This document shows positions 15,441 through 33,159 of a stretch of DNA of 45,186 nucleotides, piece after piece. The position numbers and the translations under genes were made by a program. Within the stretch, counting starts at the first letter, position 1, and each line of letters begins with the position of its first letter. Source of the DNA: a virus; the IMG/VR virus record IMGVR_UViG_3300036945_001118, positions 1 through 45,186 of that record; one strand, given 5' to 3'. The notes under the pieces were generated by a model. That model was not told where the DNA came from and searched no databases. It saw only the letters and a program-made list of their open reading frames with translations.

Positions 15441-16037
15441 CTAGTACTGACCTGGACCGTCTACCAAGGCGATTGGATTAACATTCAGTCGCCTTGATTC
15501 TTGCCATTTACTTTCTGGCATAAGGTCAAGAATCAAGTGTGTTCTAAATTCAGTGCCTCGATTTGTTGCGCTGTGCATCACACGGTTGTTTAGCTCGTAT
15601 AAGTTGCCCAATTGCATGTGATACTCATCATCTTTCCAAAGTTGTACACACTGATCGTTGGTATGAATTGGAACATGCAATCTAACGCAGTTGTCATGGA
15701 ACCACTGTGGATCTTTGTGCCAACCTAGCGTTACTCCCGGAAGCAGTGTTGCAACTTCGCCGCGTATCCATTTATACCCTGCAAAGCGTGGCAATGCCAA
15801 GATCCAATCCAGTAACGGTTTAGAGGCTCGGAGTATTTCTAACTGCTCTTCTGTATAGTTCTTGGTTGGCTTGCTAATTGGAAAAGGATACTCGACCAGC
15901 TTGCCATCTGACAGGACTTTTTCAAATCTGTCGTAACTGCCATTGCCCCAGTTTGCTTTTTTGCAAGCTTCGATAATTGGGTCAACCAAGTTGGAATCAA
16001 TGGATTCAACTACTCTATAGTTTGATTCAAATAACAT
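15441..16037 (-). CDS. AspH-type non-haem iron oxygenase, 198 aa (no. 1 of 8)
   Basis: The iron/2-oxoglutarate core is visible as GWHKD (His107, Asp109), RLHVPIHTND, the late His155 in NNRVMHSATN and Arg165 in FRTHLILDLMP, the pattern of aspartyl/asparaginyl beta-hydroxylases. It would hydroxylate a protein side chain or a small molecule; the substrate is unknown. It forms a run with the genes at 16039 and 16736 (gaps or overlaps under 15 bases), so the three probably act together. Confidence 0.85.
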   Translation of the reverse strand: MLFESNYRVVESIDSNLVDPIIEACKKANWGNGSYDRFEKVLSDGKLVEYPFPISKPTKNYTEEQLEILRASKPLLDWILALPRFAGYKWIRGEVATLLPGVTLGWHKDPQWFHDNCVRLHVPIHTNDQCVQLWKDDEYHMQLGNLYELNNRVMHSATNRGTEFRTHLILDLMPESKWQESRRLNVNPIALVDGPGQY

Positions 16038-16038
16038 A

Positions 16039-16749
16039 TTACCAATCCAAAATTGTAGGGATAGTTCGTTGACTACGAGGGATGTTCTCTCTCACAGGCC
16101 AATGCTTTGCGTATGGTTCTACTGCACTTTTTAAAATATCAATTAACATAATGATACGTGGTTCTGTGCCTGTATGCTTTGTTCCATGAAATACATTGCA
16201 ATCATCAAAGCCAAACAGTTCACCATCGACCCATTCGTGACGTTCATTTTCAATGTCAAAAACGCAACCACTTGCTTGCTTTAAAACCAAGTGGAATCGT
16301 ATGTGATCGTCAACCAAACCCCAGTGGTGATTTAACTTGCTACCTGGCAATGCAATGTTAAAGGTAACTGCCCCGACTACATCAATGTTGCGCCAAATCC
16401 AATTTTGCATGAATGGCATATCGCATAGTCGATCTTCACGAAACTTGGCCTTGTCCCCGCCTGGACGCTTCCAGTTTTCCCAGCCCATTAATTCGGCCTC
16501 ATGGTGGTCTACAAAATCTTCTTTAAGCAATACAGGCATTGCTTTGAAATCCCCAACATACAAGGGTTCGCCAGTTAGGTCGGTAAGATAATTTGCCTTT
16601 GTGCCCATTTCAGCAGTGCTGGTTACTTTAGCTTCATCTGCTTCTCTTCGAACCACTGACATAAACTCATCGCGGATTGTGGTCCAGTTCTCAGTCAACG
16701 GATCTAGCAACTTGCAAGAATTAAAATAAATGTAATTACTTTGTTCCAT
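16039..16749 (-). CDS. AspH-type non-haem iron oxygenase, 236 aa (no. 2 of 8)
   Basis: The conserved part is LNHHWGLVDDHIRFHLVLK (His141 or His142, Arg151), then GELFGFDDCNVFHGT (His188) and PRIIMLIDIL (Arg198). This matches the two-histidine AspH pattern, including the F-D-D before the distal histidine. The N-terminal 120 residues are variable. It overlaps the TauD-like gene by 14 bases. Substrate unknown. Confidence 0.85.
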   Translation of the reverse strand: MEQSNYIYFNSCKLLDPLTENWTTIRDEFMSVVRREADEAKVTSTAEMGTKANYLTDLTGEPLYVGDFKAMPVLLKEDFVDHHEAELMGWENWKRPGGDKAKFREDRLCDMPFMQNWIWRNIDVVGAVTFNIALPGSKLNHHWGLVDDHIRFHLVLKQASGCVFDIENERHEWVDGELFGFDDCNVFHGTKHTGTEPRIIMLIDILKSAVEPYAKHWPVRENIPRSQRTIPTILDW

Positions 16750-17599
16750 ATAGCTTTTCCTTTAAGCTAATGTCGTGTTCAATGTTACAACGCCACATTA
16801 AACGTTCATCAGTTGCTTTTAAATCCAATTGTGTACGACGATGCACAAACGGCCAGTTGTCGTATAACACCATATCGTTTGGACTCCAGTGATGCTCGTA
16901 CACTGTTTCCGGAACTTGTGCCATTGCTTCCATCAGCTCCTCGACAATACCTGTGCCCATGCTCTTACCGTCGAGTTTGGTATCAATGATCCACGAATCA
17001 GACGTTCCGTGGAAATTGCATCTGGGACTCCACTTGCCTGTGATAGGTTGTTGCTTCATTGAAGGCCATTCAATGATGTCATTGCCCAGATGGTGCCAAT
17101 TTTGTTGCACGACAGTTCTTGCTTCCCAACGTGCCCTGAGTTTTGGATGCACTTGCGGATAGGCTTTTTCCATGTCAAGCCACACTGTAAAACCGGCTGC
17201 TGGATTAGGCACTGTTTTCATGTAAATGATACGATGCGGGAATTGAATACCTCCATCAACACGGTTAGCAATATCAGCATGCCACGGCATTTCCTTATCA
17301 GCAAGACGTCGACTGATCTTGTTACTCATTGCTGTAATGAACTTTGGATCGTTTGGTGATTCGGGATCTTGCACCAACTCCCATTTTTCAGTACTGTCGT
17401 GATAGTTTTTTGCAGTCCACGGTTCTCCCCATAGCTTACAAAATTTCCAATAAGTTAGCTTATCCCAATCTGGTGCATGGAACACCAGCATCTTACGCTT
17501 GTACAATAGAGTCCGAAGGGCAGTTGGGCTCTGCTCAAATATATCACTCATGTCAGTGAATTCGGTGCCCCAATCTGGGAAAATGTTTTTTATTTGCAT
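16736..17599 (-). CDS. TauD/TfdA-type 2-oxoglutarate oxygenase, 287 aa (no. 3 of 8)
   Basis: TauD-like features: MPWHADIANR (His107, Asp109), a long central insertion and the C-terminal NWPFVHRRTQLD (His253) with Arg in ATDERLMWRC. TauD relatives hydroxylate small acids, amino acids or carrier-bound residues, which contrasts with the AspH-type enzymes next to it. The start is uncertain: the ATG at 17599 touches a -10-like TAATAT, and no ribosome-binding site is seen. Confidence 0.85.
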   Translation of the reverse strand: MQIKNIFPDWGTEFTDMSDIFEQSPTALRTLLYKRKMLVFHAPDWDKLTYWKFCKLWGEPWTAKNYHDSTEKWELVQDPESPNDPKFITAMSNKISRRLADKEMPWHADIANRVDGGIQFPHRIIYMKTVPNPAAGFTVWLDMEKAYPQVHPKLRARWEARTVVQQNWHHLGNDIIEWPSMKQQPITGKWSPRCNFHGTSDSWIIDTKLDGKSMGTGIVEELMEAMAQVPETVYEHHWSPNDMVLYDNWPFVHRRTQLDLKATDERLMWRCNIEHDISLKEKLYGTK

Positions 17600-17628
17600 A
17601 TATTATATTTATTGGGATTGATTGTCAA
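17600..17628 (-). promoter_or_regulatory. Possible promoter abutting the TauD-like gene
   Basis: Minus strand: TTGACA (17623-17628), 17 bases, TAATAT (17600-17605). The -10 touches the ATG, so transcription would start inside the annotated frame; either the true start codon is further in or this is chance. Confidence 0.35.
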
Positions 17629-17641
17629 AGTACAATCTTAA

Positions 17642-18223
17642 TTAGCGTACCAACCATTCAGATGCAGTTGCTCCATTGGACAATGGTTTCCAATTTGGAT
17701 TAAGCGGACTTCCATTTTTAATTTTGGCTCTGCCCAACAGAACTACAATGCCCCATTCTTTACGTTCCCATCTTGGCAGATAGTGTTCTACTGTTTTGTT
17801 GGGATTTTTATATTTCTCACTTAGTACCTGCCGAATCAATTTATGTCCGTTCCAAACGTCATTGTAAAATGTAGCACCAGGCGGAACTTCAATGCCAGCA
17901 GGAATACGGTCAGCTTCGTACCAATGCCTATAGCTGTTGTTGGAGTCTATCCATTCAACCATTACTTGTGGTTCCCATAGTAATCGGTTGTATTCGTCAC
18001 GCAGATGTTTACCATGCCATTCTTCAGGACTGGCATTGCTGATTGCTGCCACTGAAGTATTGTCTCCGCCAATGACTCCGATTATGTCAGCTGGCAATGC
18101 ATCTTGGGCGGCAATTGCAATCTTATCATTGACCAGTACCACAGTGTGGCCCACGCGATCTTCATTGTCAGGGTTGCCGTCGACCCATTCAAACATTTCG
18201 GCATATCCAGTTGCTGTTGTCAT
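17642..18223 (-). CDS. Stand-alone Peptidase_G2-like protein
   Basis: The start, YAEMFEWVDGNPDNEDRVGH, then VLVNDKIAIA and DIIGVIGGDNTSVA, is the hallmark of the Peptidase_G2 / IMC autoprocessing domain, which normally forms the C-terminus of phage spikes and fibres and cuts itself off after trimerisation. WHGKHLRDEYNRL also fits. Here it is a separate 193-residue protein with no shaft in front of it. It may act in trans as a chaperone for a fibre, or be the remnant of a split gene. It lies between oxygenase genes and a terminator at 18261. Confidence 0.75.
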   Translation of the reverse strand: MTTATGYAEMFEWVDGNPDNEDRVGHTVVLVNDKIAIAAQDALPADIIGVIGGDNTSVAAISNASPEEWHGKHLRDEYNRLLWEPQVMVEWIDSNNSYRHWYEADRIPAGIEVPPGATFYNDVWNGHKLIRQVLSEKYKNPNKTVEHYLPRWERKEWGIVVLLGRAKIKNGSPLNPNWKPLSNGATASEWLVR

Positions 18224-18260
18224 AACTTTAATTATCTATTGTCAAAGCAAACTGTTAGTC

Positions 18261-18288
18261 AAAAAAAATCCTGCTCAGAGCAGGATTT
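18261..18288 (-). terminator. Intrinsic terminator after the 18293 gene
   Basis: Minus strand AAATCCTGC-TCTGA-GCAGGATTT followed by five more T: a 9-bp stem with a strong T-run. Confidence 0.9.
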
Positions 18289-18292
18289 AATA

Positions 18293-18991
18293 TTACAAAA
18301 CAATTTTAACTCTGGTCAATCTAGTCTCGGGCGTATTATCTCGATCTTGCCCGTGTGCTTTGATTACTCCAACAATGGGAAACTCTTCCGGAGAGTCAGG
18401 CCACATATCAATCATTTTACTCGACGACCAAAAATATAAGTTAGTGCCATCAGTGGCCCGAACCACACTACCAGGAAACGCCTTTCCTTCATACTTGTTG
18501 AGTACAGTTACTAATAACCTGACATGTTGGCCTACACTGCCCTGGTGTGTGCTAGTTCCAGCGATACGCAACATAACTTCTTGCTTGTGTTCCTTTTCAA
18601 TCTCTCTGCGATATCGTGCTGCCATGCAGGCCAAATATGCCATTCCCAAATTGGCATCAATTTCTTTTGCCACCAGCATGTTCATAATTTTCTGATCAAA
18701 ATCACCAAGGGTTCCATTCAGTGCATTGAATGCAAGCCCCTGGTAATGAACTGCCATACGTTCGCCAAATTCCCTATCTCCGGCGGATATATTAACTAAC
18801 CCCAATAAGATTTGATCCTTGATAATATCGCGATTTGGCCGATATGCCACATTACCAGTTGTCAGATCAATTTCAGGTAACTTAATGTATTTCTCATCAT
18901 TGATGCGATCGGCCATTGCTACCAACGCCCAAGCATCTTCAATAGGAATCTTTTGATTTTTTGCAAAAGACTTTTTTTGTTCTGCGTCCAT
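18293..18991 (-). CDS. Unknown phage protein, 232 aa
   Basis: Residues 1-140 are mainly helical, charged and Ala-rich (QKIPIEDAWALVAMADRIND, GMAYLACMAARYRREIEKEH). Residues 145-232 look beta-rich, with VRLLVTVLNKYEG, GSVVRATDGTNLYFWSS and FPIVGVIKAHGQDRD, suggesting an OB-like or nucleic-acid-binding module. I recognise no family. GGAG precedes the ATG. It ends the unit started at 20011 and is closed by the terminator at 18261. Confidence 0.65.
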   Translation of the reverse strand: MDAEQKKSFAKNQKIPIEDAWALVAMADRINDEKYIKLPEIDLTTGNVAYRPNRDIIKDQILLGLVNISAGDREFGERMAVHYQGLAFNALNGTLGDFDQKIMNMLVAKEIDANLGMAYLACMAARYRREIEKEHKQEVMLRIAGTSTHQGSVGQHVRLLVTVLNKYEGKAFPGSVVRATDGTNLYFWSSSKMIDMWPDSPEEFPIVGVIKAHGQDRDNTPETRLTRVKIVL

Positions 18992-19004
18992 GCTTGCTCC
19001 AAAT

Positions 19005-19388: not shown

Positions 19389-19397
19389 TTCAATTCC

Positions 19398-19793: not shown

Positions 19794-19803
19794 TGTGTGC
19801 TTC

Positions 19804-19983
19804 TTACTGGTTAAGGGCGGCTTCGCGCTCACAGGCTTCATTCAGTGTGTTCTGTGCATCGTACATCTCATCACGTGCGACACGCAAGGCACGTTCCTTG
19901 TTGCTCCAATCGCTTTGTTGGGCTTCGTGGTAGGCAACCAGCTTCTCAGCGTATTGCAGGGCGAGTAATTGAACTGCTGTCAT
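19804..19983 (-). CDS. Small helical protein, 59 aa
   Basis: Start at 19983 (MTAVQLLALQYAEKLVAYHE) with AAGGAG seven bases upstream. Entirely helical and highly charged, probably a coiled coil (ERALRVARDEMYDAQNTLNE). The longer frame to 20052 would read through the promoter. First gene of the unit transcribed from 20011. Confidence 0.65.
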   Translation of the reverse strand: MTAVQLLALQYAEKLVAYHEAQQSDWSNKERALRVARDEMYDAQNTLNEACEREAALNQ

Positions 19984-20010
19984 TGTGTGCTCCTTGCTGT
20001 CTATGTGTTT

Positions 20011-20039: not shown

Positions 20040-20050
20040 CCGTTTTAGTC

Positions 20051-20102: not shown

Positions 20103-21194
20103 TTAAAACGCATCGTAGTAGCTAAAGGTCTTTTCCTTTACTTTATCCAAAGTCAGTGTAATGCCTTCGGGGTTGACAAACACAAACTTACCAACTTGGC
20201 TATCGATTTTCTTCAGGTCCGAAGCACTGAATCGGATACGTTTCCAGTCCCAGTCGTAATCTCCGTCTTCGTCCTTTTCGTCACTGTAATTTTTCACCAT
20301 CAGGTCTACACTGCTTTGAAGTGGGTTACCTTTCCATTCCTGGCGTTCCAGATCTGATTCTTTGACTTCTTCGCCTTCGCGAATCATCTTAAAGGTAAAT
20401 CTATCCCCGCCATCAAACTCTGGCTTGACGTTCAACATACGCAGAGCGTCTTGTGGAGCTTCGTCGTAACGGTTCATTTCTTCAACGGTGGCTTTCAACA
20501 TGTCAAAGTTGAACTGGGCAAACAATGCCGCAATTTGGCACAGTTTTTCGGCGTGATGCTGAAGTGTTGCTTTCAAGTTGTCAGCACAGTACTCCATGAT
20601 GAAGTTGGCATCAAGTCCCTTGTAGTCCAGCATGTAAAACAGTCGGCCTGGCCGGTTGCGCATGTGTTGGTTCACACGCCACTTGTCGTTGCAAGTAAGA
20701 ACAAACAACTTCTTGCTTGGGAATACACCATCCAGCAAGGTCAATGCCTTTTCCTGGTCATCCTCATCGTAGACTTTTTCAAACTCGTCAAAGAGAACCA
20801 TACAAGGCTGCTCGATCATTTGCATGAATGCATTGAACTTGTCACCGACCCAAGGTGCATTGATAACAATACACGGGATATCGAAACGCCGGGCAGATTC
20901 AATTGCCAAGTTCTTGGCCAGCAAACTTTTACCAGAGCCTTTTTCACCTGCCAGCATAACACCTGTACTTGCAGTACGGTCCATGAACGTATTCAGGATA
21001 CGGTCTGTGTTTTTATCCAAGTCGCCGTAACGCTTGCCTTTGATTTCAAAGCTCTCAATGTGCTCAAGATAAAGAGGGCCGTCCATGGGCATTTCTTTTA
21101 CCACATAGTTGCCAGGAGGAAGTGCGTCATGGAGATCCATGGCTTCCTTGGTGCTTACACGGAAAGTGTTACCTGATTTCAAAAAGTAAGACAT
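20103..21194 (-). CDS. AAA+ ATPase, 363 aa
   Basis: Start at 21194 with AAGGA five bases upstream gives MSYFLKSGNTFRVSTKEAMD. Walker A is GEKGSGKS (around residue 85), Walker B is CMVLFDEFEKVYDEDD, and a sensor-1-like LFVLTCND and an arginine near RNRPGR follow. The C-terminal 150 residues have no clear homology. The AAA core resembles ATPases that load or remodel protein complexes; large aquatic phages often carry a similar gene of unknown role. Promoter at 21232, terminator at 20051, so it is a single-gene unit. Confidence 0.82.
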   Translation of the reverse strand: MSYFLKSGNTFRVSTKEAMDLHDALPPGNYVVKEMPMDGPLYLEHIESFEIKGKRYGDLDKNTDRILNTFMDRTASTGVMLAGEKGSGKSLLAKNLAIESARRFDIPCIVINAPWVGDKFNAFMQMIEQPCMVLFDEFEKVYDEDDQEKALTLLDGVFPSKKLFVLTCNDKWRVNQHMRNRPGRLFYMLDYKGLDANFIMEYCADNLKATLQHHAEKLCQIAALFAQFNFDMLKATVEEMNRYDEAPQDALRMLNVKPEFDGGDRFTFKMIREGEEVKESDLERQEWKGNPLQSSVDLMVKNYSDEKDEDGDYDWDWKRIRFSASDLKKIDSQVGKFVFVNPEGITLTLDKVKEKTFSYYDAF

Positions 21195-21321: not shown

Positions 21322-21325
21322 TCGT

Positions 21326-22135
21326 ATGACGCAATTTAACACTCAATTGGGCCTTGGCACTAGTGATTTAGGATGTAACCTAGCAAGTGCAGCCAAAGAT
21401 AAAACGGCAATACACTATGCGCTGGACATTGGATACACTGTTATCGACACAGCTGAAAAATACGGCAATGGCAAAACGGAAATTGTAATCGGCGCAGCAT
21501 TGAAAGATTACGGACTTGGTAAAAGAAACACTTACCAAATAGTGTCTAAGGTCCTGCCAATAAATGCTTCCAAGCAAGGAACAATTGATGCATGCAAGGC
21601 ATCTATCAGAAGATTACAGTGCGAGTATATTGATACGTACTTGTTGCACTGGCGTGGACCGGTACCACTTGACGAAACACTCGAAGGTTTCTTGGAACTC
21701 CAACAACAGGGTCTAATTAAAAACTACGGTGTAAGCAGTTTTGATATTATAGATTTAATTGAATGGCGTAGAGCCGAAGAAAAACTTGGAGTGCCTGCTG
21801 GTATAGTAACTAACCAAGTATATTACTCGCTTTCAAATCGACGAATTGAAAAGTCATTGATGAAGTACCAAGAAAAGTATAACATTTCTACTATGGCCTA
21901 TTCCCCACTTGATCAGGGCAAGCTGTTGTCTAATCAAACACTTTTAGATATTGCCAATGAATACAATTTGTCGCCGGCGCAACTTGCATTGGCATGGACT
22001 ATTAGGAATCCCAACGTTATTACTATTCCAAAATCGGGTCAGTTGTTCAGAATCTTAAGCAATTACAATGCCAGCAAACTCAAACTGTCAGACGAGCTAA
22101 TTTCTAAAATGAATACGTTATTCCCAATTACATGA
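21326..22135 (+). CDS. Aldo/keto reductase
   Basis: A full-length 269-residue AKR barrel that reduces carbonyls with NAD(P)H. The catalytic tetrad is Asp in VIDTAEKYGNG, the Tyr of the same segment, Lys in IVSKVLP and His in TYLLHWRGP. The cofactor loop appears as IPKSGQLFRILSNYNA, a variant of the usual IPKSxxxxR. The substrate is unknown. First gene of a three-gene unit, overlapping the next by ATGA. Confidence 0.92.
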   Translation: MTQFNTQLGLGTSDLGCNLASAAKDKTAIHYALDIGYTVIDTAEKYGNGKTEIVIGAALKDYGLGKRNTYQIVSKVLPINASKQGTIDACKASIRRLQCEYIDTYLLHWRGPVPLDETLEGFLELQQQGLIKNYGVSSFDIIDLIEWRRAEEKLGVPAGIVTNQVYYSLSNRRIEKSLMKYQEKYNISTMAYSPLDQGKLLSNQTLLDIANEYNLSPAQLALAWTIRNPNVITIPKSGQLFRILSNYNASKLKLSDELISKMNTLFPIT

Positions 22136-22800
22136 TTGCACCACAAATACTACCCCAACTAAGCAATACATTGCGAGCAGAGTTGCTTGATTGTTTCAAG
22201 CATAACTCCATGCTAAAGGAGTACCCAGGAAGAGCATTTGCACTAGATTTGGGTCCAGCACTTGAACTGATATCGCCTATAATTGACTCAGTGCTTGGCT
22301 CCGGGACTTGGGAAGTCACAGGCGGAAACTTCTTTGAAACAAACACTGGTTATAGGGTGCATGCAGATACAGGTAAGGAAGGTCCCGAAAGAGTATGGCA
22401 AACCTTTGTATTTCCATTGTCAATGGAAGCTAAACCAAATGTGCAGCCATTGCCGGAACAAGTTAGATTGCTCATATTAAATCAGACATGGGCAGGTGAT
22501 GCAGCTTTCTTTTTAAGAGGCAGCCCTGATGAACCAAACGAATACAATATAGTTGTCAAAGACTACAGGGATGTTGGCAACAGAGACGATGAAGGAACAA
22601 TTGATGGCATGCTATTAGAGCAATGCCCGCATCTTAATCCCAGCAATTTTGTTGGATTGTCAGTTGATAAAAGTTTTCAATGGATTCCGGGAATACCAAT
22701 TACATTCCCTCGTAATAGGTTACACGTAAGTTCTGCGTTCCCACGTGTTGGAATCTTAAAGAAAACTGGATTGAGTATTTTTACCTCTAAAAAGCAATGA
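22132..22800 (+). CDS. 2OG-Fe(II) oxygenase-like protein, 222 aa (no. 4 of 8)
   Basis: YRVHADTGKEG (His77, Asp79) is followed by WQTFVFPLSME and a late RLHVSSAFPRVGI (His198, Arg206): the HxD...H facial triad of prolyl-hydroxylase-like oxygenases. The spacing of 119 residues is long but acceptable. It overlaps both neighbours by four bases, so reductase, oxygenase and radical SAM are made together and probably act on one substrate. Confidence 0.8.
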   Translation: MIAPQILPQLSNTLRAELLDCFKHNSMLKEYPGRAFALDLGPALELISPIIDSVLGSGTWEVTGGNFFETNTGYRVHADTGKEGPERVWQTFVFPLSMEAKPNVQPLPEQVRLLILNQTWAGDAAFFLRGSPDEPNEYNIVVKDYRDVGNRDDEGTIDGMLLEQCPHLNPSNFVGLSVDKSFQWIPGIPITFPRNRLHVSSAFPRVGILKKTGLSIFTSKKQ

Positions 22801-23765
22801 CACATCTAATAGAAATTAAAAAGCCAGTGGATACACTGTACATATACTGGACTATAACTGACTTTTGCAATTTCAAATGCTCATACTGCCCTTCTAACTT
22901 GCATGCAGGACTATTTGCTAGAAAAATCAAACCTGGTGCGCCAACCAATGAAGAAATTGAAACGTTCATTGACCGAGTTCTTAACATTCATTTAATGGAT
23001 AGATTTTTGAACATGACACTGTCGGGTGGCGAGCCTACCTTGCATCCCATGTTCAAGACTATTGTTGAACGCATGGGGCCTCGTGGCTCAATTGAAGTGG
23101 TCACAAACGGATCTCGTTCAGTTGAATGGTGGCAAGATATGAAAGTGTTGCCTAACAAGGTAACAATTTCGCTGCATCCAGAATTTAGTAATCTTGACAA
23201 GATCAATGATCTTGGATTATTTCTAAAAGACAACGGGGTGGATTTGGCATTTAATTTGATGTGTGATCCAAAAAATTGGGATTGGGTTATCAATGTAAAA
23301 CAACTGCTCAACGAGCGATTGCATGGTCACATCAATGCAAAAATTCTAACAGACCACTCGGGTACTTTCAAGGACGGCACACCATACGAGTACTATGAAC
23401 AGCAACTGGATTTTATCAAGAAACAGCAATCAACTGTTGCCACCAACACTGATCCTAGAAAACACACATTTGCAATTTATAGCGATGGTACACAAACAGG
23501 TTTAGATGCATTTAAACTGGTTACTAACAAGCAGCATTCTTTTAAAGGATGGGCATGTTCAGCAGGGCATGCAGGTTTAAAGATTGGATTTGATGGGCAG
23601 GTTACTGCCGGGATATGTGAAATTACAAAGCTTGGACGTTTAGATACATTTGAGCTAGGGCCAAAAGAAATTACATGTATAAGACAATGGTGCAAAACTG
23701 CCGGCGATCTTAATCTTAATAAGAGATTACTTGTTCCCAAGATCAGCGACGCCAAGCTGGCCTAA
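22797..23765 (+). CDS. Radical SAM enzyme, 322 aa
   Basis: TDFCNFKCSYCPSN carries C24-x3-C28-x2-C31 for the 4Fe-4S cluster; TLSGGEPTLHP is the SAM-contact motif. A C-terminal region holds further cysteines (GWACSAGH, GICEITK, QWCKTAG) spaced like an auxiliary-cluster SPASM/twitch domain. Such enzymes modify peptides or sugars. The last 39 bases overlap the convergent QueC-like gene. It is not QueE: it is too long and the cysteine spacing differs. Confidence 0.88.
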   Translation: MTHLIEIKKPVDTLYIYWTITDFCNFKCSYCPSNLHAGLFARKIKPGAPTNEEIETFIDRVLNIHLMDRFLNMTLSGGEPTLHPMFKTIVERMGPRGSIEVVTNGSRSVEWWQDMKVLPNKVTISLHPEFSNLDKINDLGLFLKDNGVDLAFNLMCDPKNWDWVINVKQLLNERLHGHINAKILTDHSGTFKDGTPYEYYEQQLDFIKKQQSTVATNTDPRKHTFAIYSDGTQTGLDAFKLVTNKQHSFKGWACSAGHAGLKIGFDGQVTAGICEITKLGRLDTFELGPKEITCIRQWCKTAGDLNLNKRLLVPKISDAKLA

Positions 23766-24374
23766 AGCCCATTCTCGTTCTTTGCAGTTATAGCATTCTC
23801 CGCAACGTCCCACGGTAAGTGCAGTACAAGAGTGTGTTAGCTCAATCAGTGGCCATATATCAAATGTGTCATACAAACTTAAAGTATGACGCTTGTCTAC
23901 CAATGCAAAAGGACATGTAGTACCGGGAAGTTCCACACTGGCAGGGCGATTAGGATACTCACCTGGCAATTCAATCAGTGCGCGATCCGGATGTGCCTGA
24001 CTGCCATAGAACACATGCTCGATTCCATAACGTGTTCTTGCTTCGTGCTCGCCTGTGCGTCCTTGTTGACTGTGATGTACTGTGGCATCTCCGACTTTGA
24101 TAGGATCGGGCAATTGTTCTGCTGTAAGACTTAATTTATTTCTTACCCATTCTACAATAGGCTTAACATAATCCCACGCACCATCAGGCCTGGCAACTGT
24201 AAACGGAATCAACTCTTGTGTGCTGTGATCCATCTTGCGTTCCAGGCAAAGCAGATACAATAACACCGCAGAGTCTGCTCCACCACTTAGCATTACTCCA
24301 ATGCGTTGCTTACCTTCAGGTAGCTTGATATCTACTTGCTGGATGTAATTGTCTTTGCCTACTGTAATTCTCAT
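23727..24374 (-). CDS. QueC-like PP-loop ATPase, 215 aa
   Basis: SGGADS (residues 30-35) is the ATP-pyrophosphatase P-loop, and the C-terminus has four Cys (183, 191, 194, 197) in SCTALTVGRCGECYNCKERE, as in the QueC zinc site. QueC makes the nitrile of preQ0. The middle differs from standard QueC, with YGSQAHPDRALIELPG and EHVFYG, so another amide/nitrile or thiolation substrate is possible. No other preQ0 gene (queD, queE, folE) is in view. Overlaps the convergent radical SAM gene by 39 bases. Confidence 0.75.
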   Translation of the reverse strand: MRITVGKDNYIQQVDIKLPEGKQRIGVMLSGGADSAVLLYLLCLERKMDHSTQELIPFTVARPDGAWDYVKPIVEWVRNKLSLTAEQLPDPIKVGDATVHHSQQGRTGEHEARTRYGIEHVFYGSQAHPDRALIELPGEYPNRPASVELPGTTCPFALVDKRHTLSLYDTFDIWPLIELTHSCTALTVGRCGECYNCKEREWALGQLGVADLGNK

Positions 24375-24375: not shown

Positions 24376-25122
24376 TCAGTGTCTATGTTGTAAATGTTTT
24401 AGTACACGGTCTACATTTTCTACGGTAAACGGTACATTAAGAATCAAATGCCAGCTGTCATTGACCCAGCTAATTGTTCTGTGTGTCATGCGAGTATTCA
24501 CATAATACACACGACCTATTTCAATGTTGGCTTTGCGATCATCCATCAACCAATCGTAATCTAATGGTCCGCAGTTCTTTAAAAATGCTACAAGTCTAAA
24601 GCAAGGGCGTGGCATGCCAGGATGGTCGCGATGCGGCACAAAATATCCGCCAATGCCCGAGTTGATTAAAAATGAACGTCCCAAGGGTTGCCATTCATCT
24701 AAGAAGTCTTTTAAACTTGTCAAGCCGGGACTTGCACGATTGCAGTCATTGTACAAGGCAGTGGGAACACAGAACTCTGTTTCTTTGGGAGTGTAGCCCA
24801 ATGCATTGGCAGCTTCGGGAATACTTGGTGCCTTCTTGTGGTCCCAACCTGGGATAGTTGTCAGCGTCATTGACCTACGATTGTTAGGACGATCTGTACG
24901 CGGCAAGTAATCAACCCAATCCGCACTGTACTTTTCATTGATAACATTTTCAATACCATGTGTATCTAATTTGTAATCAAGCGGCTCAAAGTTGCCAATT
25001 TGGCCTAGTGCTAACTCTGCGGCAAGACTTGCAGGGTGCATTGCGCCCAGTCCTTGTCGACTACCGCTGACACCTGCACCTTGTACTGCGTTTGGATTGC
25101 TTTTATTGAATAAGTTTGTCAT
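24376..25122 (-). CDS. AspH-like iron oxygenase, 248 aa (no. 5 of 8)
   Basis: FVPHRDHPGMPRPCFRLVAF (His164, Asp166, Arg176) and YYVNTRMTHRTISW (His214) with WHLILNVPF form the core. The N-terminal 100 residues (SGSRQGLGAMHPASLAAELA) are unlike the other oxygenases. It is directly followed by the QueC-like gene with a one-base gap. Substrate unknown. Confidence 0.8.
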   Translation of the reverse strand: MTNLFNKSNPNAVQGAGVSGSRQGLGAMHPASLAAELALGQIGNFEPLDYKLDTHGIENVINEKYSADWVDYLPRTDRPNNRRSMTLTTIPGWDHKKAPSIPEAANALGYTPKETEFCVPTALYNDCNRASPGLTSLKDFLDEWQPLGRSFLINSGIGGYFVPHRDHPGMPRPCFRLVAFLKNCGPLDYDWLMDDRKANIEIGRVYYVNTRMTHRTISWVNDSWHLILNVPFTVENVDRVLKHLQHRH

Positions 25123-25689: not shown

Positions 25690-26604
25690 TTAACCGTTTA
25701 GAAGCTTAAGACCACTTATAATGTCACCGTCAACCAACATGTCAACTGGATGCTTTTTACCGGCAAATTTGTTTGTGCTCCAACTGTTGGTTTGTTGATC
25801 AAAGTCCCACCAGCAACTGAAGCCCAACATTAAATGGATACGAGGCGGCGCTGTGCGTGTTTTGGCATATGCACGGTGCATTGTGTTAGTGTCCCATGAA
25901 TATGCATAACCAGCTTCAATATGAACTGGGTCGCTGCCTTCTTGTTCCAATAGATAGTCGGGATGTGTAAAAATAGGAATATTAATTCGCAAATTGGTTG
26001 TCATTGCTTCGTCTTTGTGCCAAGTTACACCTGCATACTTGTCGTCGCCAACTGGACCCTCCTGCTCGGCATAGATAATGCGAATTGCAGTTCTGACCAT
26101 GGTACACTTAAAGGAGTCTAAAAATGTGCCCAACGACTTGTGGTAGCTTGCAGGAGTTCGTGTTGCAAATCCAAATGTGTCGTAATGTGTATTACGTTTA
26201 ATCGTCGGCATATTGATATTGGAATATGCAGAATACGGATTTGCTACACCTTTGGTTCCTGGATTGTGATTGCCTTGTACTTGTTCGTGTACGTTTGCAG
26301 AATTGCCATCAACATGATTGGGATTGTACGTTAGTCCAAGACCACCATAACTTGCATCTTTGCGGCCTTCGCCAACCAATCGATAATTCCATTCACCATA
26401 CAATTGCAGTGCTTCTTGTGTGTCGGTTACCAACTGTTGAAAGTCAACTGAGTCAGGCAGTTGAAACTTTAATAGCTTTGGGTATTCGTGTGACAGCGGA
26501 ACATCGGGCACCGACTTGTTAATTTTAAATGGCGTGAGCGTATCAAAGTAAGAAGCAGTAGTTGTGTTTACTGGTATTTTGTTTAAGTCGTTAACGGTAA
26601 TCAT
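25690..26604 (-). CDS. AspH-like iron oxygenase, 304 aa (no. 6 of 8)
   Basis: TWHKDEAMTTNLRINIPIF (His196, Asp198, Arg206), SWDTNTMHRAYAK (His243) and PPRIHLMLGF (Arg255) give the facial triad plus oxoglutarate-binding Arg. The long N-terminal region includes LGLTYNPNHVDGN and DTFGFATRTP. Start at 26604 overlaps the upstream gene as ATGA; the TTG at 26616 lacks proper spacing. Substrate unknown. Confidence 0.82.
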   Translation of the reverse strand: MITVNDLNKIPVNTTTASYFDTLTPFKINKSVPDVPLSHEYPKLLKFQLPDSVDFQQLVTDTQEALQLYGEWNYRLVGEGRKDASYGGLGLTYNPNHVDGNSANVHEQVQGNHNPGTKGVANPYSAYSNINMPTIKRNTHYDTFGFATRTPASYHKSLGTFLDSFKCTMVRTAIRIIYAEQEGPVGDDKYAGVTWHKDEAMTTNLRINIPIFTHPDYLLEQEGSDPVHIEAGYAYSWDTNTMHRAYAKTRTAPPRIHLMLGFSCWWDFDQQTNSWSTNKFAGKKHPVDMLVDGDIISGLKLLNG

Positions 26605-27587
26605 TTTGCAATCCAATCCTTATATTTTTCATAACTTGGCTCCAATGCTTTGAGCCATTCGGTAATCTTTGGTCTACCCTTAACTGCCATAATAATCTTT
26701 GGTTTGGCAAGATCTGCACCGTGTACAAATGCTCCGTTGTTAAACACAAATGTATTTGTGTCTGGCGGCAGATCTACGTATGTGCGTTTTTCACGTGGTA
26801 CACGATTTGCACTAACTCCATAAGCAGCACCTGTGCGTACAGTAATCGGACGCGGATCATAATCTTCTGTTCGATCAGGCCACTGACTAATCCAAAAAGT
26901 TGGACCATCGTTTGTGTCCCATATCATGATTCTCAAACTGTCCGGCCAAGGATAGATAACTGCATCTGGGTCAATGTGCGGGGTCACTTCGTTGATGTTT
27001 GACCAAAGCACAACTTTTTCAATGCTGTGGAATGGCAAGCATGAAAATATTTGCTCAAACATTTTAGGAAAGTGTTTGGTCCAATCGTCAACCACAGTAT
27101 TCTTGTAATTGAATTTGGTGTGATCTACTTCGGGGTGCAAGAAGCAGCAAAGGCCTTTCCAAAACTGAGTTTCTGTTTGTCCACGTGTAATGTCAGCTTG
27201 CTTTTCATTCCATAACTTCCAAAACAATTCCCAGTCATCAGGTTCAATCTTGGGAATGTCCAACGGCACCCAGGAAATTGGCGTCCACTTTTCATCTACC
27301 AATGCAATCTCTGGCCATGCTGCTGGACTAATGCGGCTTAGAAAATCAACGTTGGTGTTGGGCATGTGCATTACACGAGCACCAAGTCTGACCCACTCGT
27401 TGTATGGGCTACGTCCATTTAGTAACTGCATTGCAGAGTGCATATCAAGGACTACCCATTCGCCTGGGTTAAGCTCTGTTGGCAATGGTTGTCCTGCTGG
27501 CAATGTTAGTGTTTTACCAGTTAGTCTGCTGTTACGCCAGTTTACATGGGCCAGTATTGTTACTTTTGGAGGGATAATGGGATTCAT
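26601..27587 (-). CDS. Iron/2OG-type oxygenase-like protein, 328 aa (no. 7 of 8)
   Basis: EVTPHIDPDAVI (His204, Asp206), SLRIMIWDTNDGPTFWIS and NNGAFVHGADLAKPKI (His289) with a following Lys in place of the usual Arg suggest an AspH/2OG fold. A 150-residue N-terminal region with many Trp and Pro is specific to this gene. Co-transcribed and overlapping with the gene at 25690. Confidence 0.72.
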   Translation of the reverse strand: MNPIIPPKVTILAHVNWRNSRLTGKTLTLPAGQPLPTELNPGEWVVLDMHSAMQLLNGRSPYNEWVRLGARVMHMPNTNVDFLSRISPAAWPEIALVDEKWTPISWVPLDIPKIEPDDWELFWKLWNEKQADITRGQTETQFWKGLCCFLHPEVDHTKFNYKNTVVDDWTKHFPKMFEQIFSCLPFHSIEKVVLWSNINEVTPHIDPDAVIYPWPDSLRIMIWDTNDGPTFWISQWPDRTEDYDPRPITVRTGAAYGVSANRVPREKRTYVDLPPDTNTFVFNNGAFVHGADLAKPKIIMAVKGRPKITEWLKALEPSYEKYKDWIAK

Positions 27588-27617: not shown

Positions 27618-28223
27618 TTATTTCATTAGTGCAAGTTGTATTTCTTTCCAGTTACTGAATCGACGAACTGAAATATCCGAGAATCCTCGGTTCCACGGTT
27701 GGTCAATGAGGTAAGTGGCATGCCCGGCTTGTGCAGAGGCTCTTGCAGTTGATTCAGTTGAAGTAACGCACACTGCTGCATCGTGTTCGCGCAAGGCTGA
27801 ATATAAATTTGTAGTGCGGTTAACAACATACAGTTCATCAAACACACCCGGGAACAGAAGTTCTATATTGGCACGTCGAAGTATTGCTCTATTCATATCG
27901 CTGGATGATTTACTGTATCCAACAATGTGCCAACCCCGATCTGCTAGATCACTTAGTACCGACTCTGCGCCCAGCAACGGGTACAATGCACCCCACTGCC
28001 ACGAGTACTCGCAAAACTCTTTCATCCATAAGTCGGCCAATTCTTCAGGAACATTGAGCCATGCACCCAGATGTTCTCGACTTGTTATTGTATTGCCTGC
28101 AACATTTTGCAAACGACCAAGAGACGAAAGCCACTTGACGAATGCAGTTAATGTATCAACACAAGTATCATCAAGATCGACGATTAACTTGTTTTCAAAC
28201 TCTTCATCCTGCAAGCTCAACAC
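27618..28223 (-). CDS. HAD-superfamily phosphatase, 5'(3')-deoxynucleotidase-like
   Basis: LIVDLDDTCVD (Asp16, Asp18) is HAD motif I; VGYSKSSSDMNRA gives motif II with Ser instead of Thr, and late GHATYLIDQPWNRGF contains the acidic motif IV in the spot usual for NT5C-type deoxynucleotidases. It probably dephosphorylates nucleotides or a sugar phosphate. The start is a GTG at 28223, overlapping the ClpS stop by about 20 bases, with GGAG four bases before it. Confidence 0.8.
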   Translation of the reverse strand: MLSLQDEEFENKLIVDLDDTCVDTLTAFVKWLSSLGRLQNVAGNTITSREHLGAWLNVPEELADLWMKEFCEYSWQWGALYPLLGAESVLSDLADRGWHIVGYSKSSSDMNRAILRRANIELLFPGVFDELYVVNRTTNLYSALREHDAAVCVTSTESTARASAQAGHATYLIDQPWNRGFSDISVRRFSNWKEIQLALMK

Positions 28224-28515
28224 TCACTCCAAGCGGGTGTCCATTGGTGCGAGCAATTTGCGTAGACTCCATGGCCTTTTGTTCAGCAACTTCATATGTA
28301 TACACACCAGCAGTACCTTTTCCATTTTGGTGAACCTGCATCATAATTTGCGTTGCGGCATCTTGTGTGTGATGGAAAATTACTTTAAGTAATTCGATAA
28401 CAAACTCCATTGGTGTAGAATTGTCATTTAAAATTACTACGCGGAAACGTTCTGGTTCCTTTGCATTTGTAATGTTATCAGTTTTCTTGATAGTCTGAAT
28501 TGCTGTTTCTGCCAT
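28204..28515 (-). CDS. clpS: ClpS-like N-degron adaptor
   Basis: Start at 28515 (MAETAIQTIKKTDN) gives 103 residues. The ClpS fold is clear: VVILNDNSTPMEFVIELL, MQVHQNGKGTAGVYTYEVAE, MESTQIARTNGHPL. In bacterial ClpS the loop reads NDD-x-TPMEFV; here the second Asp is Asn, which lies by the N-degron pocket. Bacterial ClpS hands substrates to ClpA-ClpP. It sits directly downstream of hsp20 and near a phage clpX; no clpA or clpP is seen. Confidence 0.92.
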   Translation of the reverse strand: MAETAIQTIKKTDNITNAKEPERFRVVILNDNSTPMEFVIELLKVIFHHTQDAATQIMMQVHQNGKGTAGVYTYEVAEQKAMESTQIARTNGHPLGVSVELAG

Positions 28516-28548
28516 TTGTGTTTCCAGTATGTTTAACAATGATATTTA

Positions 28549-28578
28549 GTTGGGACAACGTGGTAGAGTCGCCCCAAC
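28549..28578 (-). other. Strong stem-loop between hsp20 and clpS
   Basis: GTTGGGGCGAC pairs with GTTGTCCCAAC (11 bp with two G-U pairs) around an 8-base loop. No T-run follows, so it may be an RNA-stability or attenuation element between the genes. Confidence 0.5.
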
Positions 28579-28585
28579 ATTTATA

Positions 28586-29017
28586 TTATCCCTTAATTAA
28601 AGGAATCTTTTTTGGTTTTGCTTCTTCGGGTACAATCTCATTAAGATCGATAATCAGCATGCCATCTTTGAGCTCGGCTGTTTTAATCTCAATGCGATCA
28701 CCTAATACAAACTCACGTTTAAAATTGCGAGTAGCAATTCCGCGATGCAAGTAGTTTGCTTTATCTTCTTCGGTCTTTTGACCAGTTACAATAAGTGCAT
28801 TTTCTTGCTGAGTGATTTCGATATCCCGGTCAGTAAAACCTGCAACCGCAAGAGTAATGCGGTAGTCATGCTCTGCAAGTTTTTCTAAGTTGAAAGGGGG
28901 ATATCCACCGTTGCTGGGATTACTAACTTGCATTAGTCGATCCAATTCGTTAAACAAATGATCGAACCCAACACCAAATCTCTGGTATGGCTGTAGATTA
29001 TTACAATGATTAGACAT
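28586..29017 (-). CDS. hsp20: Small heat-shock protein (Hsp20/IbpA family)
   Basis: 143 residues. The alpha-crystallin domain covers about residues 42-130: YRITLAVAGFTDRDIEI, ALIVTGQKTEED, LHRGIATRNFKREFVLGD and the A-x-x-x-x-G-x-L motif in AELKDGMLIIDL, with the I-x-I anchor KKIPLI at the C-terminus. It holds unfolded proteins; phages of this type often carry hsp20. GGAG precedes the ATG. Own promoter at 29103; the leader holds two small stem-loops. Confidence 0.95.
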   Translation of the reverse strand: MSNHCNNLQPYQRFGVGFDHLFNELDRLMQVSNPSNGGYPPFNLEKLAEHDYRITLAVAGFTDRDIEITQQENALIVTGQKTEEDKANYLHRGIATRNFKREFVLGDRIEIKTAELKDGMLIIDLNEIVPEEAKPKKIPLIKG

Positions 29018-29047
29018 AATATAGTCTCCTTATAGCGAGTCTAAATT

Positions 29048-29095
29048 TGTGATCCTATTGGCATCACATTGTGCGTTAGCCCTCTTGGCACTAAC
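29048..29095 (-). other. Structured hsp20 leader
   Basis: TGTGAT/ATCACA (29048-29053 with 29063-29068) and GTTAG/CTAAC plus GGC/GCC (29075-29095) form two hairpins between the promoter and the ribosome-binding site. RNA thermometers are known in bacterial hsp20 leaders, but no FourU or ROSE anti-Shine-Dalgarno is visible here. Confidence 0.4.
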
Positions 29096-29102
29096 ATACA
29101 CA

Positions 29103-29131
29103 ATTATATTTATTTCTTATCAGTTTGTCAA
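29103..29131 (-). promoter_or_regulatory. Consensus sigma-70 promoter for hsp20
   Basis: Minus strand: TTGACA (29126-29131), 17 bases, TATAAT (29103-29108). Not a sigma-32 heat-shock promoter. Confidence 0.85.
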
Positions 29132-29139
29132 GTAGTATT

Positions 29140-29412
29140 TTAATACATTCGACGCTTCACACCATCGCGTGGAGCACGTTTACCGCTTAGTTCGTCAGTT
29201 TCAACTTGCTTTTGGTGACGGCGCTTTGCTTTATTTGCAGCAACACGGCGTTCAGTTGTTGGCTTAACATATTCCATGCGCTCACGGACCTCGTCCATTT
29301 TGCCAGAATCTTGGATCTTATTTTTAAATTTGCGTAAAGCTCTTTCAACTTGATCATCCTTGACCATTACGCTCGTGCCCCTTACTTTTGGGCGGTGGGT
29401 ATCTCTGCTCAT
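29140..29412 (-). CDS. rpsU: Ribosomal protein bS21 homologue
   Basis: 90 residues with the bS21 core (VERALRKFKNKIQDSGKMDE, VRERMEYVKPTTERR) and a very basic tail (NKAKRRHQKQ, KRAPRDGVKRRMY). Bacterial bS21 has about 70 residues, so this copy has extra tail and a short N-terminal extension. bS21 sits at the mRNA exit next to the anti-Shine-Dalgarno; phage copies are thought to bias the ribosome to phage messages. It lies three bases after clpX. Confidence 0.93.
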   Translation of the reverse strand: MSRDTHRPKVRGTSVMVKDDQVERALRKFKNKIQDSGKMDEVRERMEYVKPTTERRVAANKAKRRHQKQVETDELSGKRAPRDGVKRRMY

Positions 29413-29415
29413 ATT

Positions 29416-30642
29416 TTATGCAACTATTTCTAGGTTAGTATAAATTCTAACAACGCTATGGTCTTCCACAGATTGTTCAGTAATTATAACTTTACTTAAT
29501 CCTTCTTTGGCCAATTCAGGTAGATTAAACTGTATATCAAGTAAAATTTGTTCAATAATATTTCTAAGTCCACGGGCACCCGTTTTCTTAAGAACACTAA
29601 GGTTAGCAATGGCCACGCATGCTTCTGGTGTAAATTCCAGTTCAACATGATCAAGCGCAAATATTGCTTTGTATTCCTTTTCAATGCTGTCGTCTGGTTC
29701 TGTCATAATATGAACCAAGTCTTCGACTGTTAAAGTATCAAGTGCAGCAATAACTGGAATACGTCCCATGAATTCAGGAATCATTCCAAACTTGACAAAG
29801 TCTTCTGGCTCTACTTCTGCAAGCCATTGATCAGTTTTGACATCAGCACGTTCTACTTCAGCACCAAAGCCGATTTTGGCACCGCCGCTCATTCGCTTCT
29901 TAACTTGCTCATCTAAACCAACAAATGCGCCGCCAAGGATAAACAAAATGTTTTTGGTGTTTACTGTGTTGGTATCATGTCCGGGATGCTTGCGTCCACC
30001 GTTTTGTGGCACACGGCACTCGGTACCTTCAATCAGCTTTAATAAGGCCTGCTGTACACCTTCGCCTGACACGTCACGGGTAATGCTAGAGCTTTCGCTT
30101 TTGCGACCCTTCTTATCAATTTCGTCAATATAAACAATACCAGTCTCAGCTTTTTTAATGTCTCCACCAGCTGACTGTAACAGCCTATGGATAACACTTT
30201 CCACATCATCGCCTACATATCCACTTTCGGTCAATGTGGTAGCATCAGCAATTGCAAACGGAACATTGAGCTTTTCTGCTAATTTTTTAGCAAGCAGTGT
30301 TTTGCCAGACCCAGTTGGCCCAATGAGTAGCACATTACTTTTCTTAATAAGATCGCCTTTGCCTTGACTTAGTCGTTTGTAGTGATTGCGAACTGCAACA
30401 CTTAAACTACGCTTGGCAAGATCCTGCCCAATTACAAATCGATCCAAGAAAGATTTGATTTCACTTGGTGTAGTTGTGTCTGTAAACTCAGATGGTAGAT
30501 CTTTACCATCTGATGCCATTGCATCTAAACAAAGATGAATACATTCATTGCAAATGTATGCTTTGTCGCCGGCAATAAGTGCCTTGACTTCATCTCTATG
30601 CTTATTGCAGAAGCTACAAGACAGTTGCTGTGCTTTATCCAA
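29416..30642 (-). CDS. clpX: ClpX unfoldase
   Basis: I assign a TTG start at 30642 (408 residues): GGAG lies seven bases upstream, and the zinc domain begins at once (Cys9, 12, 31, 34). All ClpX motifs are present: Walker A GPTGSGKT (108-115), pore loop GYVG (141-144), Walker B IVYIDEID (169-176), RKH loop (217-219), IGF ClpP-docking loop (257-259) and sensor 2 GARGLR (355-360). It can thus probably dock host ClpP and feed it substrates chosen by the phage. The start overlaps the upstream stop (TTGGATAA). The ClpS gene lies 900 bases further on. Confidence 0.95.
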
Positions 30643-31054
30643 GGGTAAGCTCCATGATTGCAAGTAGATGGTCAAAGTCTTCAAAATGTGGAATGTCAAC
30701 AGCATTAAGCAATGCAACAAATTCATCATTCCCGGGTTTAACATGGAACACAATTGGTTGATCTACTTTGGCCATTGCCAGAGCCATACGTATTTCATGT
30801 TCTGAGCAGCTTGCCATGTCAATGAAAATCATACTGCAATTATCAACAACATGCCAATACCAGACCCATGCTTTAGGATCTTTAACTCCGGCGTCATTGG
30901 CATAAAATGTCAACTGGTTTTGGATGCCTTTTTCCAAGATAGAAATTACTGCATCTTGCCAAACTTTATCATTGCTGATTAATGCAAAGCCCAGGCCGCC
31001 GCTTGGCATATGTAAAGTAGGCGGACTTACAACGTAAACACTTGAATCACTCAA
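30635..31054 (-). CDS. Unknown phage protein, 139 aa
   Basis: [20 protein letters not shown] is followed by an alternating strand/helix pattern ([38 protein letters not shown]) suggestive of a small alpha/beta Rossmann-like fold, but without a nucleotide loop. It is coupled to clpX, which starts inside its stop. Similar short proteins occur in aquatic phages; function unknown. Confidence 0.65.
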
Positions 31055-31063
31055 AATAGACCT

Positions 31064-32425
31064 TTAGTTAGTATCATCACGCTTTGGATAGCTTACATTA
31101 AACCATCCTCTGCTTCGTTTTTGTTTGGCAATGTCTTCTGCACTTGCCTTATATATTTTATCTAAATTCTCAGCAGCTTGTTGCTCAGAATGCACTGGAG
31201 TAGACCACGCTTCACCTGGTGTACCAGGTGGTGCAAAGTCATCAGGAGGAGTAATGTAGTCGCCTGGTCGTTCAATATTGTCAAAGTCTTCGGCTACTTC
31301 TTCAACAACTTCTTCAACTGCTTCTTCAACTGCTTCGTCGACTACTTCTTCAACAGTGTCCTCGGGCAGTATAATTGTTGCGCCACCGATTGTTCCTGGC
31401 ATATCTAATATTACTGGCTCTCCCACTGCTTCCATTGTGGTGTCTGGTTGAACACTGGGCTCAAGTAATGTTGCATCATCTGAAGGTGCTTCTTGCTGCT
31501 CTGTTGCTTCAGCAACCACTGGCAAGACTTCTTCGTCAGGTACAGTTTCAATTTCTTTAACATCAGTTTGGACTCCTTCTGATTGTGCGACAGTGGGTTG
31601 CTCAGTTTCCCGAATCCTTACTGGGCTGTCGCCCTCCGCTTCATCTTGCTTACGGAACCATTGGAAGCTGTACTGGCTAGCCAACAATAGTATAACTGCA
31701 AGAGGGTCAAATACTGCTACAATAACAATGATTACCCATGTCACTGCTTTTTCCAACACGTTGGTATTGGGATTATCCCCATACACAAAGGCAGCAATGT
31801 ATTTTATCGGACCAACTTCCGCTTCAACCTTTCGAACCTCAGCGGCAATGGGCGCCCGTTCTTCGCTAACGGCAGTAATAACTTTCTGTTCGGCTTGGAT
31901 GTCAGACTGAAGGCGGGCACGTTCTTTTTGTTGTGAGCGTCTAAGCCCAACAGCTTTGTCAGCACCCGTTTCTGAACTGCTTCTTGCCATGACTTGGTCC
32001 ACAGCTTCATCCATCTGTTTAAGCGCCTTGCGGTTAGCATCAATATTTTCCTTTGCTGTTTTAATCTTGTCATCGTACACTGCAATCTTGCTCATAACGT
32101 CACCACTAACTAGACTTTGGTCACTGTGTGCTTTGCTCAAGAAGCCAAAGATACCCATGCTGGTGATAATCATCAAGATACCGACTGCAACGGTCATGTA
32201 TGTTCTAATAAAAACAGGGGCACGTTGCCAATTTAGCTTTAACCACATAGTGGCAATCAGTTTACTAACCTCCAATGCCACACCCATAACAACAATAGGT
32301 ACAACTGCGGCTGAGAAAATACTAACAAGTCCGGCAACTGAATAATAAACTGCGACTGCGCTAATGCTTAGTCCGCTAATCAGCGCCAAGTAAGCAACAA
32401 TTATATCTGTTCGTGTAATTTTCAT
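31064..32425 (-). CDS. Large membrane protein with coiled coil and acidic tail, 453 aa
   Basis: Start at 32425 (MKITRTDIIVAYLALISGLS), one base overlapping the upstream stop (TAATG). Four TM helices near residues 8-30, 33-58, 72-96 and 227-251; between TM3 and TM4 is a soluble coiled coil (110-200). The 200-residue C-terminal tail is acidic and repetitive (VEEVVDEAVEEAVEEVVEE) and ends with a basic patch. The shape resembles DUF4407-like phage membrane proteins. Which face of the membrane the tail occupies is unknown. Confidence 0.8.
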   Translation of the reverse strand: MKITRTDIIVAYLALISGLSISAVAVYYSVAGLVSIFSAAVVPIVVMGVALEVSKLIATMWLKLNWQRAPVFIRTYMTVAVGILMIITSMGIFGFLSKAHSDQSLVSGDVMSKIAVYDDKIKTAKENIDANRKALKQMDEAVDQVMARSSSETGADKAVGLRRSQQKERARLQSDIQAEQKVITAVSEERAPIAAEVRKVEAEVGPIKYIAAFVYGDNPNTNVLEKAVTWVIIVIVAVFDPLAVILLLASQYSFQWFRKQDEAEGDSPVRIRETEQPTVAQSEGVQTDVKEIETVPDEEVLPVVAEATEQQEAPSDDATLLEPSVQPDTTMEAVGEPVILDMPGTIGGATIILPEDTVEEVVDEAVEEAVEEVVEEVAEDFDNIERPGDYITPPDDFAPPGTPGEAWSTPVHSEQQAAENLDKIYKASAEDIAKQKRSRGWFNVSYPKRDDTN

Positions 32426-33159
32426 TATAGGTGGGTCTTCGCTGTAAAGCAATGCGGCAAGTCGTCAAACAACGGAGCTTCAATCAGCTTGCCATTTAAG
32501 TCATAATCATACGTGTGATTTTTTCCTTGCGGGTTTGGGACCTTGGCATACGGATTATAAAGTTCGCACATACGATCATAATAGTTTTGTGGCATTATAT
32601 CAATCACCAGGTGAGTGCGCCACGTATCGCCGTAGTTTACTGCTGTATGGATAATCTTGTTATTCAATTCCCATACTTCGCCTTCGTTGATATGATCTCT
32701 CTTACCACCATTATTTAAATCATAACTGTGATGATATAACCAGCACTCAGTATTAGTGCTGATTGCAATGTTGTAGCGGCGTGCATATCGTTGATTGATA
32801 CGTGTATCTGTATGTAATACAGTATCGCCTTCGCGTGGGCGCATTCTTGCAATATCTGCTTGCACAATCACTGGATTTTCAATGCCTGTTAAACTTGCCA
32901 AATATTCACATTGTGGTTTAAGAATGTTTTCCCACATGTCCCAAATGCCCGGCGGATATCCTTTTGAAATTTCTGCAAAGCCTTTGCTTCGTTCCTGATT
33001 GACAGGCAAGTATATCAGATGGGTACCATCACCACGAATGTAACGCTTTGGCTGCTCAACCGGATCCCAATCCCAGTTGGCTTCCCAATCGCGATACTCA
33101 TTAAAAATTGCCGAATCAAACTCAGCAATTTTTCTAGCAGTTAAACCTTGTTCGTACAT
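32425..33159 (-). CDS. AspH-type iron oxygenase, 244 aa (no. 8 of 8)
   Basis: VLHTDTRINQRYARRYNIAI (His116, Asp118) and ELNNKIIHTAVNYGDTWRTH (His171, Arg181) followed by LVIDIMP repeat the pattern of the gene at 15441 closely (ELNNRVMHSA, FRTHLILDLMP), so the two are probably recent paralogues. A YHHSYDLNNGGKRDH loop is specific here. Overlaps both neighbours by one base. Confidence 0.85.
   Translation of the reverse strand: MYEQGLTARKIAEFDSAIFNEYRDWEANWDWDPVEQPKRYIRGDGTHLIYLPVNQERSKGFAEISKGYPPGIWDMWENILKPQCEYLASLTGIENPVIVQADIARMRPREGDTVLHTDTRINQRYARRYNIAISTNTECWLYHHSYDLNNGGKRDHINEGEVWELNNKIIHTAVNYGDTWRTHLVIDIMPQNYYDRMCELYNPYAKVPNPQGKNHTYDYDLNGKLIEAPLFDDLPHCFTAKTHL

Follow-up and report, generated by a model that had tools for sequence, protein, structure and literature searches.

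A phage locus with eight putative Fe(II)/2OG oxygenases and a recurring cassette of two oxygenases and a PP-loop enzyme

Are eight oxygenase-like genes encoded within 18 kb of virus DNA all Fe(II)/2-oxoglutarate (2OG) oxygenases, and what could they modify? The window, i.e. the whole stretch of DNA analysed here, is a linear IMG/VR virus record of 45,186 bases; no near-identical isolate phage was found. The relatives revealed by searches with the window proteins are uncultured contigs, the longest measuring 244 kb. In one of them, G003, a 676-aa protein showed 32-34% identity to proteins encoded by Salicola phage SCTP-2 (440 kb) and by PA5oct-like jumbo phages, one of these proteins being annotated as structural, so the window is probably a fragment of a large myophage. 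All eight ORFs listed in a preliminary description are open frames present at exactly the coordinates given there, and encode the following putative enzymes:

15441-16037, minus strand, AspH-superfamily 2OG oxygenase, H107-x-D109...H155...R165
16039-16749, minus strand, AspH-type oxygenase with two His ligands, H142-x-G144...H188...R198
16736-17599, minus strand, TauD/TfdA-family oxygenase, H107-x-D109...H253...R266
22132-22800, plus strand, prolyl-hydroxylase-like oxygenase, cassette core, H77-x-D79...H198...K211
24376-25122, minus strand, phage-only oxygenase family, cassette core, H164-x-D166...H214, R176 invariant, His225
25690-26616, minus strand, AspH-like oxygenase lacking a Pfam match, H200-x-D202...H247...R259
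26601-27587, minus strand, orphan oxygenase, H204-x-D206...H289...K297
32425-33159, minus strand, AspH-superfamily oxygenase, H116-x-D118...H171...R181

The bare HxD...H...R/K pattern was found in 13 of the 56 window proteins, compared with 10.8 expected from composition, and six of these 13 are not oxygenases. The facial-triad patterns put forward in the preliminary description are thus not significant by themselves (about 11 of 56 window proteins expected by chance). Motif counting was dropped as evidence, and the case for oxygenases rests on families, folds and conservation. Three of the eight proteins pass the PF05118 cut-off and a fourth passes that for TauD. A fifth was recognised as AspH-like by comparing profiles, and two more were assigned by their predicted fold; the assignment of the eighth, 24376, is based on invariant ligands and weak profile matches. 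Pfam matches were obtained for 15441, 16039, 32425 and 16736 and for none of the other four. Grouping by sequence revealed an AspH-like set of four (15441, 32425 and 25690, with 16039 more distant), one TauD enzyme and three proteins without a detectable link to the others. All eight ORFs are therefore best read as Fe(II)/2OG oxygenases. Their proposed identity as several types of such enzymes is supported; 16039 lacks the acidic ligand. Profiles of ten families detected no further oxygenases in the window, and PF13640, the family of PHD-like phage oxygenases, had no match there. No match to a family of TET/JBP-type base oxidation was obtained.

The genes 16736, 22132, 24376, 25690, 26601 and 32425 are each present in all five related contigs, and 15441 and 16039 each in three of them. 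Gene order of the oxygenases is the same across the five contigs and the orthologs are intact. Comparison with G007 revealed dN/dS values of 0.04-0.05 where computable, with saturated dS for the rest, and shows purifying selection on the oxygenase genes. Overlaps of 4-16 nt between genes at the locus suggest co-translation; because the genes lie on both strands, not all of them share one transcript.

Within the AspH superfamily, PF05118 matched 15441 (9e-9), 16039 (2e-18) and 32425 (3e-5; 24.3 bits, cut-off 22.6), all above the Pfam cut-off. The nearest solved structure for 15441 is L-proline cis-4-hydroxylase, and those for 32425 are free proline hydroxylases. For 16039 the closest solved structures are the protein-modifying AspH enzymes (1.5e-7), and its H142, G144, H188 and R198 are invariant in four orthologs, giving the HxG...H...R arrangement of two-His AspH enzymes. 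It also matched the LpxO model NF033391 (1.5e-12; 47.2 bits, equivalog cut-off 500) and the OlsC model, both far below cut-off. None of the six members of the 25690 family matched PF05118; this family is linked to the superfamily solely by profile-profile comparison (hhalign, 91.7% probability with the 15441 family).

A recent duplication had been proposed for 15441 and 32425, which does not agree with our alignment of only 28% identity over 132 aa. The two families are sister groups in the tree, with long branches between them, and separate orthologs of each are already present in the relatives (72-88% identity for 15441 in three of five). Judged by branch lengths and orthologs, the pair are old paralogs whose split predates the divergence of these phages. 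In the relative G008, the 32425 family is represented by two genes in tandem (positions 21030 and 21762; 52% and 82% identity to the window gene).

16736 matched PF02668 with 7e-19 (69.3 bits, cut-off 27), and its HxD...H...R ligands are invariant in seven sequences, which places it in the TauD/TfdA family. Its nearest solved structures are TfdA-like enzymes and ScoE, and it matches the ScoE model far below cut-off. 16736 and 16039 overlap by 14 nt. In the orphan 26601, H204, D206, H289 and K297 do not vary among 13 sequences, the most distant of which share about 31% identity. Its AlphaFold2 model (mean pLDDT 82) showed a DSBH fold with middling similarity to 2OG oxygenases (Z no higher than 8.9, rmsd 3.6-4.0); the best-ranking chains of characterised proteins belong to the 2OG oxygenase superfamily. 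DSBH fold, HxD...H ligands and a basic 2OG residue together place 26601 in this superfamily. Among the PDB matches listed for the 26601 and 22132 models, the top ones are almost all 2OG oxygenases or their relatives.

The two other oxygenases, 22132 and 24376, form a cassette with a third gene:

23727-24374, minus strand, QueC-like PP-loop enzyme, cassette partner, SGGADS and C-x8-C-x2-C-x2-C

In 22132, the prolyl 4-hydroxylase residues HxD...H...K are present, and H77, D79, H198 and K211 are invariant in all 39 diverse family members. Its AlphaFold2 model displayed a DSBH fold (mean pLDDT 67, residues 118-178 unreliable) with Z up to 11.8 to 2OG oxygenases. The viral collagen prolyl hydroxylase vCPH (Z 11.7) is tied at Z 11-12 with other 2OG enzymes, including the non-protein enzymes SnoN and AlkB.

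The 24376 family showed H164-x-D166 in all 51 members and H214 in all 50 aligned sequences, and R176 is invariant. Position 225 holds a His in place of the usual 2OG-binding Arg, which makes the cosubstrate less certain, and 2OG may perhaps not be used in the usual way. The profile of the family matched structures of BesD halogenase, proline 3-hydroxylase and PolL-type hydroxylase weakly (E 0.03-0.7). One of 25 members, Mosig_00081 (a 27% relative of 24376), matched PF05118 at 0.0028, under the cut-off.

23727 shares the PP-loop SGG-DS and the QueC-type four-Cys motif with the QueC family (PF06508, including QatC and Cap9; 25.5 bits, cut-off 22). It differs from this family in being phage-borne and paired with oxygenases. 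Since it reached only 21 bits with the QueC equivalog TIGR00364, far below the cut-off of 150.3, its sequence is called QueC-like here, not a demonstrated QueC.

23727 adjoins 24376 in all five relatives. A scan of IMG/VR for 24376 revealed 73 loci, down to 44% identity, which were dereplicated to 49. Of these 49, 38 have a 22132-family gene near 24376 (median distance 1.4 kb) and 25 have a QueC-like PP-loop gene. Among the 11 loci lacking 22132, eight are shorter than 9 kb; roughly half of all loci lack the PP-loop gene, including some that are not truncated. The cassette of 24376, 22132 and PP-loop gene hence recurs as a unit in diverse uncultured phages, and this is the new point: in the literature searched, no description of the cassette or of the family mix at the locus was found. 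Short-pattern searches of 84,980 bacterial and archaeal genomes detected no homologs of 24376 or 26601, and no isolate phage matches were found for 22132, 16736, 25690, 26601, 32425 or the QueC-like gene. Radical SAM genes and further 2OG-like families recur beside 24376, as do, by inspection, nitroreductase-, desaturase- and methyltransferase-like enzymes; all of these resemble tailoring enzymes. In loci L066-L138, two more small 2OG-like families were seen beside 24376 relatives, one of about 180 aa with HxD...H...R and one of about 170 aa that is PF05118-like.

Two neighbours of the oxygenase genes in the window were identified by profile:

17642-18223, minus strand, Peptidase_G2 of the tail-appendage chaperone type (PF11962, 5e-19), in 5/5 relatives
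22797-23765, plus strand, radical SAM enzyme beside 22132 (PF04055), in 2/5 relatives

The Peptidase_G2 gene lies upstream of the gene run 16736-16039-15441. The six radical SAM genes described earlier are indeed present in the window. Four of them cluster with a carbamoyltransferase, an SGNH-like ORF and a DUF6492 protein at 36065-45184, and relatives contain up to 12 radical SAM matches. Elsewhere in the window, phage ClpS, Hsp20-like and ClpX genes stand in a row (28204-30753) that is kept in all five relatives; no ClpP was noticed in the window. The usual partner of ClpS is ClpA. At 353-3724 and 34207-34728 we observed genes for a NAMPT-family enzyme, a protein with nucleotidyltransferase and NUDIX domains and a NadR-like kinase, and within the same set a macro-domain-like ORF (1832-2305). 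This set looks like NAD+ salvage or reconstitution, possibly for anti-defence.

Eight oxygenases in 18 kb had been regarded as extreme, but known phages are comparable or richer. The Pelagibacter phage Mosig EXVC030M has, like the window, many annotated 2OG oxygenases in a short region: seven in about 20 kb (40.9-61.0 kb), namely two Asp_Arg_Hydrox, one TauD and four of 2OG-Fe(II) type. Its region also shares radical SAM and carbamoyltransferase genes with the window, and has a nitroreductase and other tailoring genes as well. By profile, the Mosig genome revealed nine PF13640, three PF05118 and one TauD match, some under cut-off; most of its oxygenases are of the PF13640 type, which the window lacks. 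Cyanophage S-SCSM1 reportedly carries 24 2OG-Fe(II) oxygenase genes, compared with 1-5 in most T4-like cyanophages (PMC9602691). It resembles the window in combining many divergent 2OG oxygenases in one phage, whereas its families are PF13640, PF13661, PF13759 and PF05721 (PMC9602691) and those of the window are AspH, TauD and orphan types. Marine phages commonly carry PHD-like oxygenases (PMC12774648). An Asp/Asn beta-hydroxylase has been reported as core to pelagimyophages, an AspH-like enzyme that is a conserved phage gene as in the window; that report names one core protein, whereas the window has four AspH-superfamily genes and four others (PMC7029224). An oxygenase-rich phage locus is therefore already known as a kind.

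The observed gene content, invariant active-site residues, synteny, purifying selection and cassette recurrence are consistent with a tailoring locus conserved within one lineage of large phages, with eight separately maintained Fe(II)/2OG oxygenases and the cassette as its core; we favour this reading with about even confidence. Iron would be bound through HxD...H (in 16039 through two His), and each oxygenase would use O2 and 2OG to oxidise a substrate of its own. As the three cassette genes recur together, 24376, 22132 and the PP-loop enzyme may belong to one pathway, in which a carboxylate or carbonyl-type group would be activated by 23727, with the two oxygenases working on the same molecule at an earlier or later step. 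For the enzymes of the locus we infer catalysis, for 24376 the use of 2OG, and for the cassette a shared substrate. More tentatively, the cassette could be a previously undescribed, phage-specific pathway. Its two oxygenases and its ATP-dependent PP-loop enzyme would then jointly introduce a new modification into a nucleobase, a protein or some cell component while a large aquatic phage infects its host.

The preliminary description had suggested a repeated target such as residues of virion repeats, or else a sugar/base precursor. A single repeated virion target is disfavoured because the closest characterised relatives are not the same from gene to gene: those of 15441 and 32425 are free L-proline hydroxylases, those of 16039 AspH and LpxO, and those of 16736 TfdA, TauD and ScoE. 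Hydroxylation by these oxygenases of Asp, Asn or Pro residues in virion or tail proteins of the phage itself is unlikely. The AspH-like structures closest to 16039 modify proteins, 22132 resembles prolyl hydroxylases including vCPH, the tail-appendage chaperone gene is adjacent and the Mosig oxygenases flank tail fibre genes; however, small-molecule enzymes are the closest relatives of 15441, 32425 and 16736, and the fold of 22132 matches non-protein enzymes equally well. ORF 6692 (6692-7189) encodes a small tail-fibre-like protein with a collagen-like (GPP)5 stretch, the only GPP-rich one in the window. This stretch was rejected as the common target, as it is not conserved alongside the oxygenases: it was not found in the G007 homologs of the ORF 6692 protein, and G007 keeps all eight oxygenase genes.

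Slightly less probable still is a modification of host surface lipids or glycans, such as lipid A or ornithine-lipid hydroxylation, that blocks superinfection. The matches of 16039 to LpxO and OlsC and of 16736 to ScoE, together with the nearby carbamoyltransferase and DUF6492 genes, would fit such a role, and glycosyltransferases of pelagimyophage host-recognition islands have been interpreted likewise (PMC7029224). No protein reached an equivalog cut-off, however, and the 73 loci revealed no association between the cassette and glycan genes.

We consider it rather improbable that the product of the cassette is a modified base of the 7-deazaguanine type, destined for phage DNA, tRNA or protein. 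The four-Cys motif of the PP-loop protein and a PTPS/QueD-family gene in nine of 12 related contigs argue for it, and there are anti-phage systems in which QueC relatives act on proteins as modifying enzymes (PMC13279940, PMC11996544). Against it stand the QueC equivalog score, the position of the PTPS gene, which is not near the cassette, and the 12 contigs, mostly fragments, in which no TGT-family enzyme (PF01702) was detected, though a divergent DpdA could escape this search. In phages with the QueC-like cassette gene, the PTPS/QueD gene was seen to adjoin an Rv2179c-like exoribonuclease gene (L017:18236-18775 and other relatives). A general auxiliary role in lowering 2OG or steering host metabolism, as proposed for cyanophage oxygenases (PMC9602691), is very improbable, since draining 2OG needs no eight divergent enzymes under separate strong constraint.

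The locus also shows that oxygenase-rich phage loci exist beyond the PHD-like (PF13640) types recognised by databases. Phage 2OG oxygenases are abundant in water, and the cassette, with three genes and clear active sites, offers a tractable entry point to their function.
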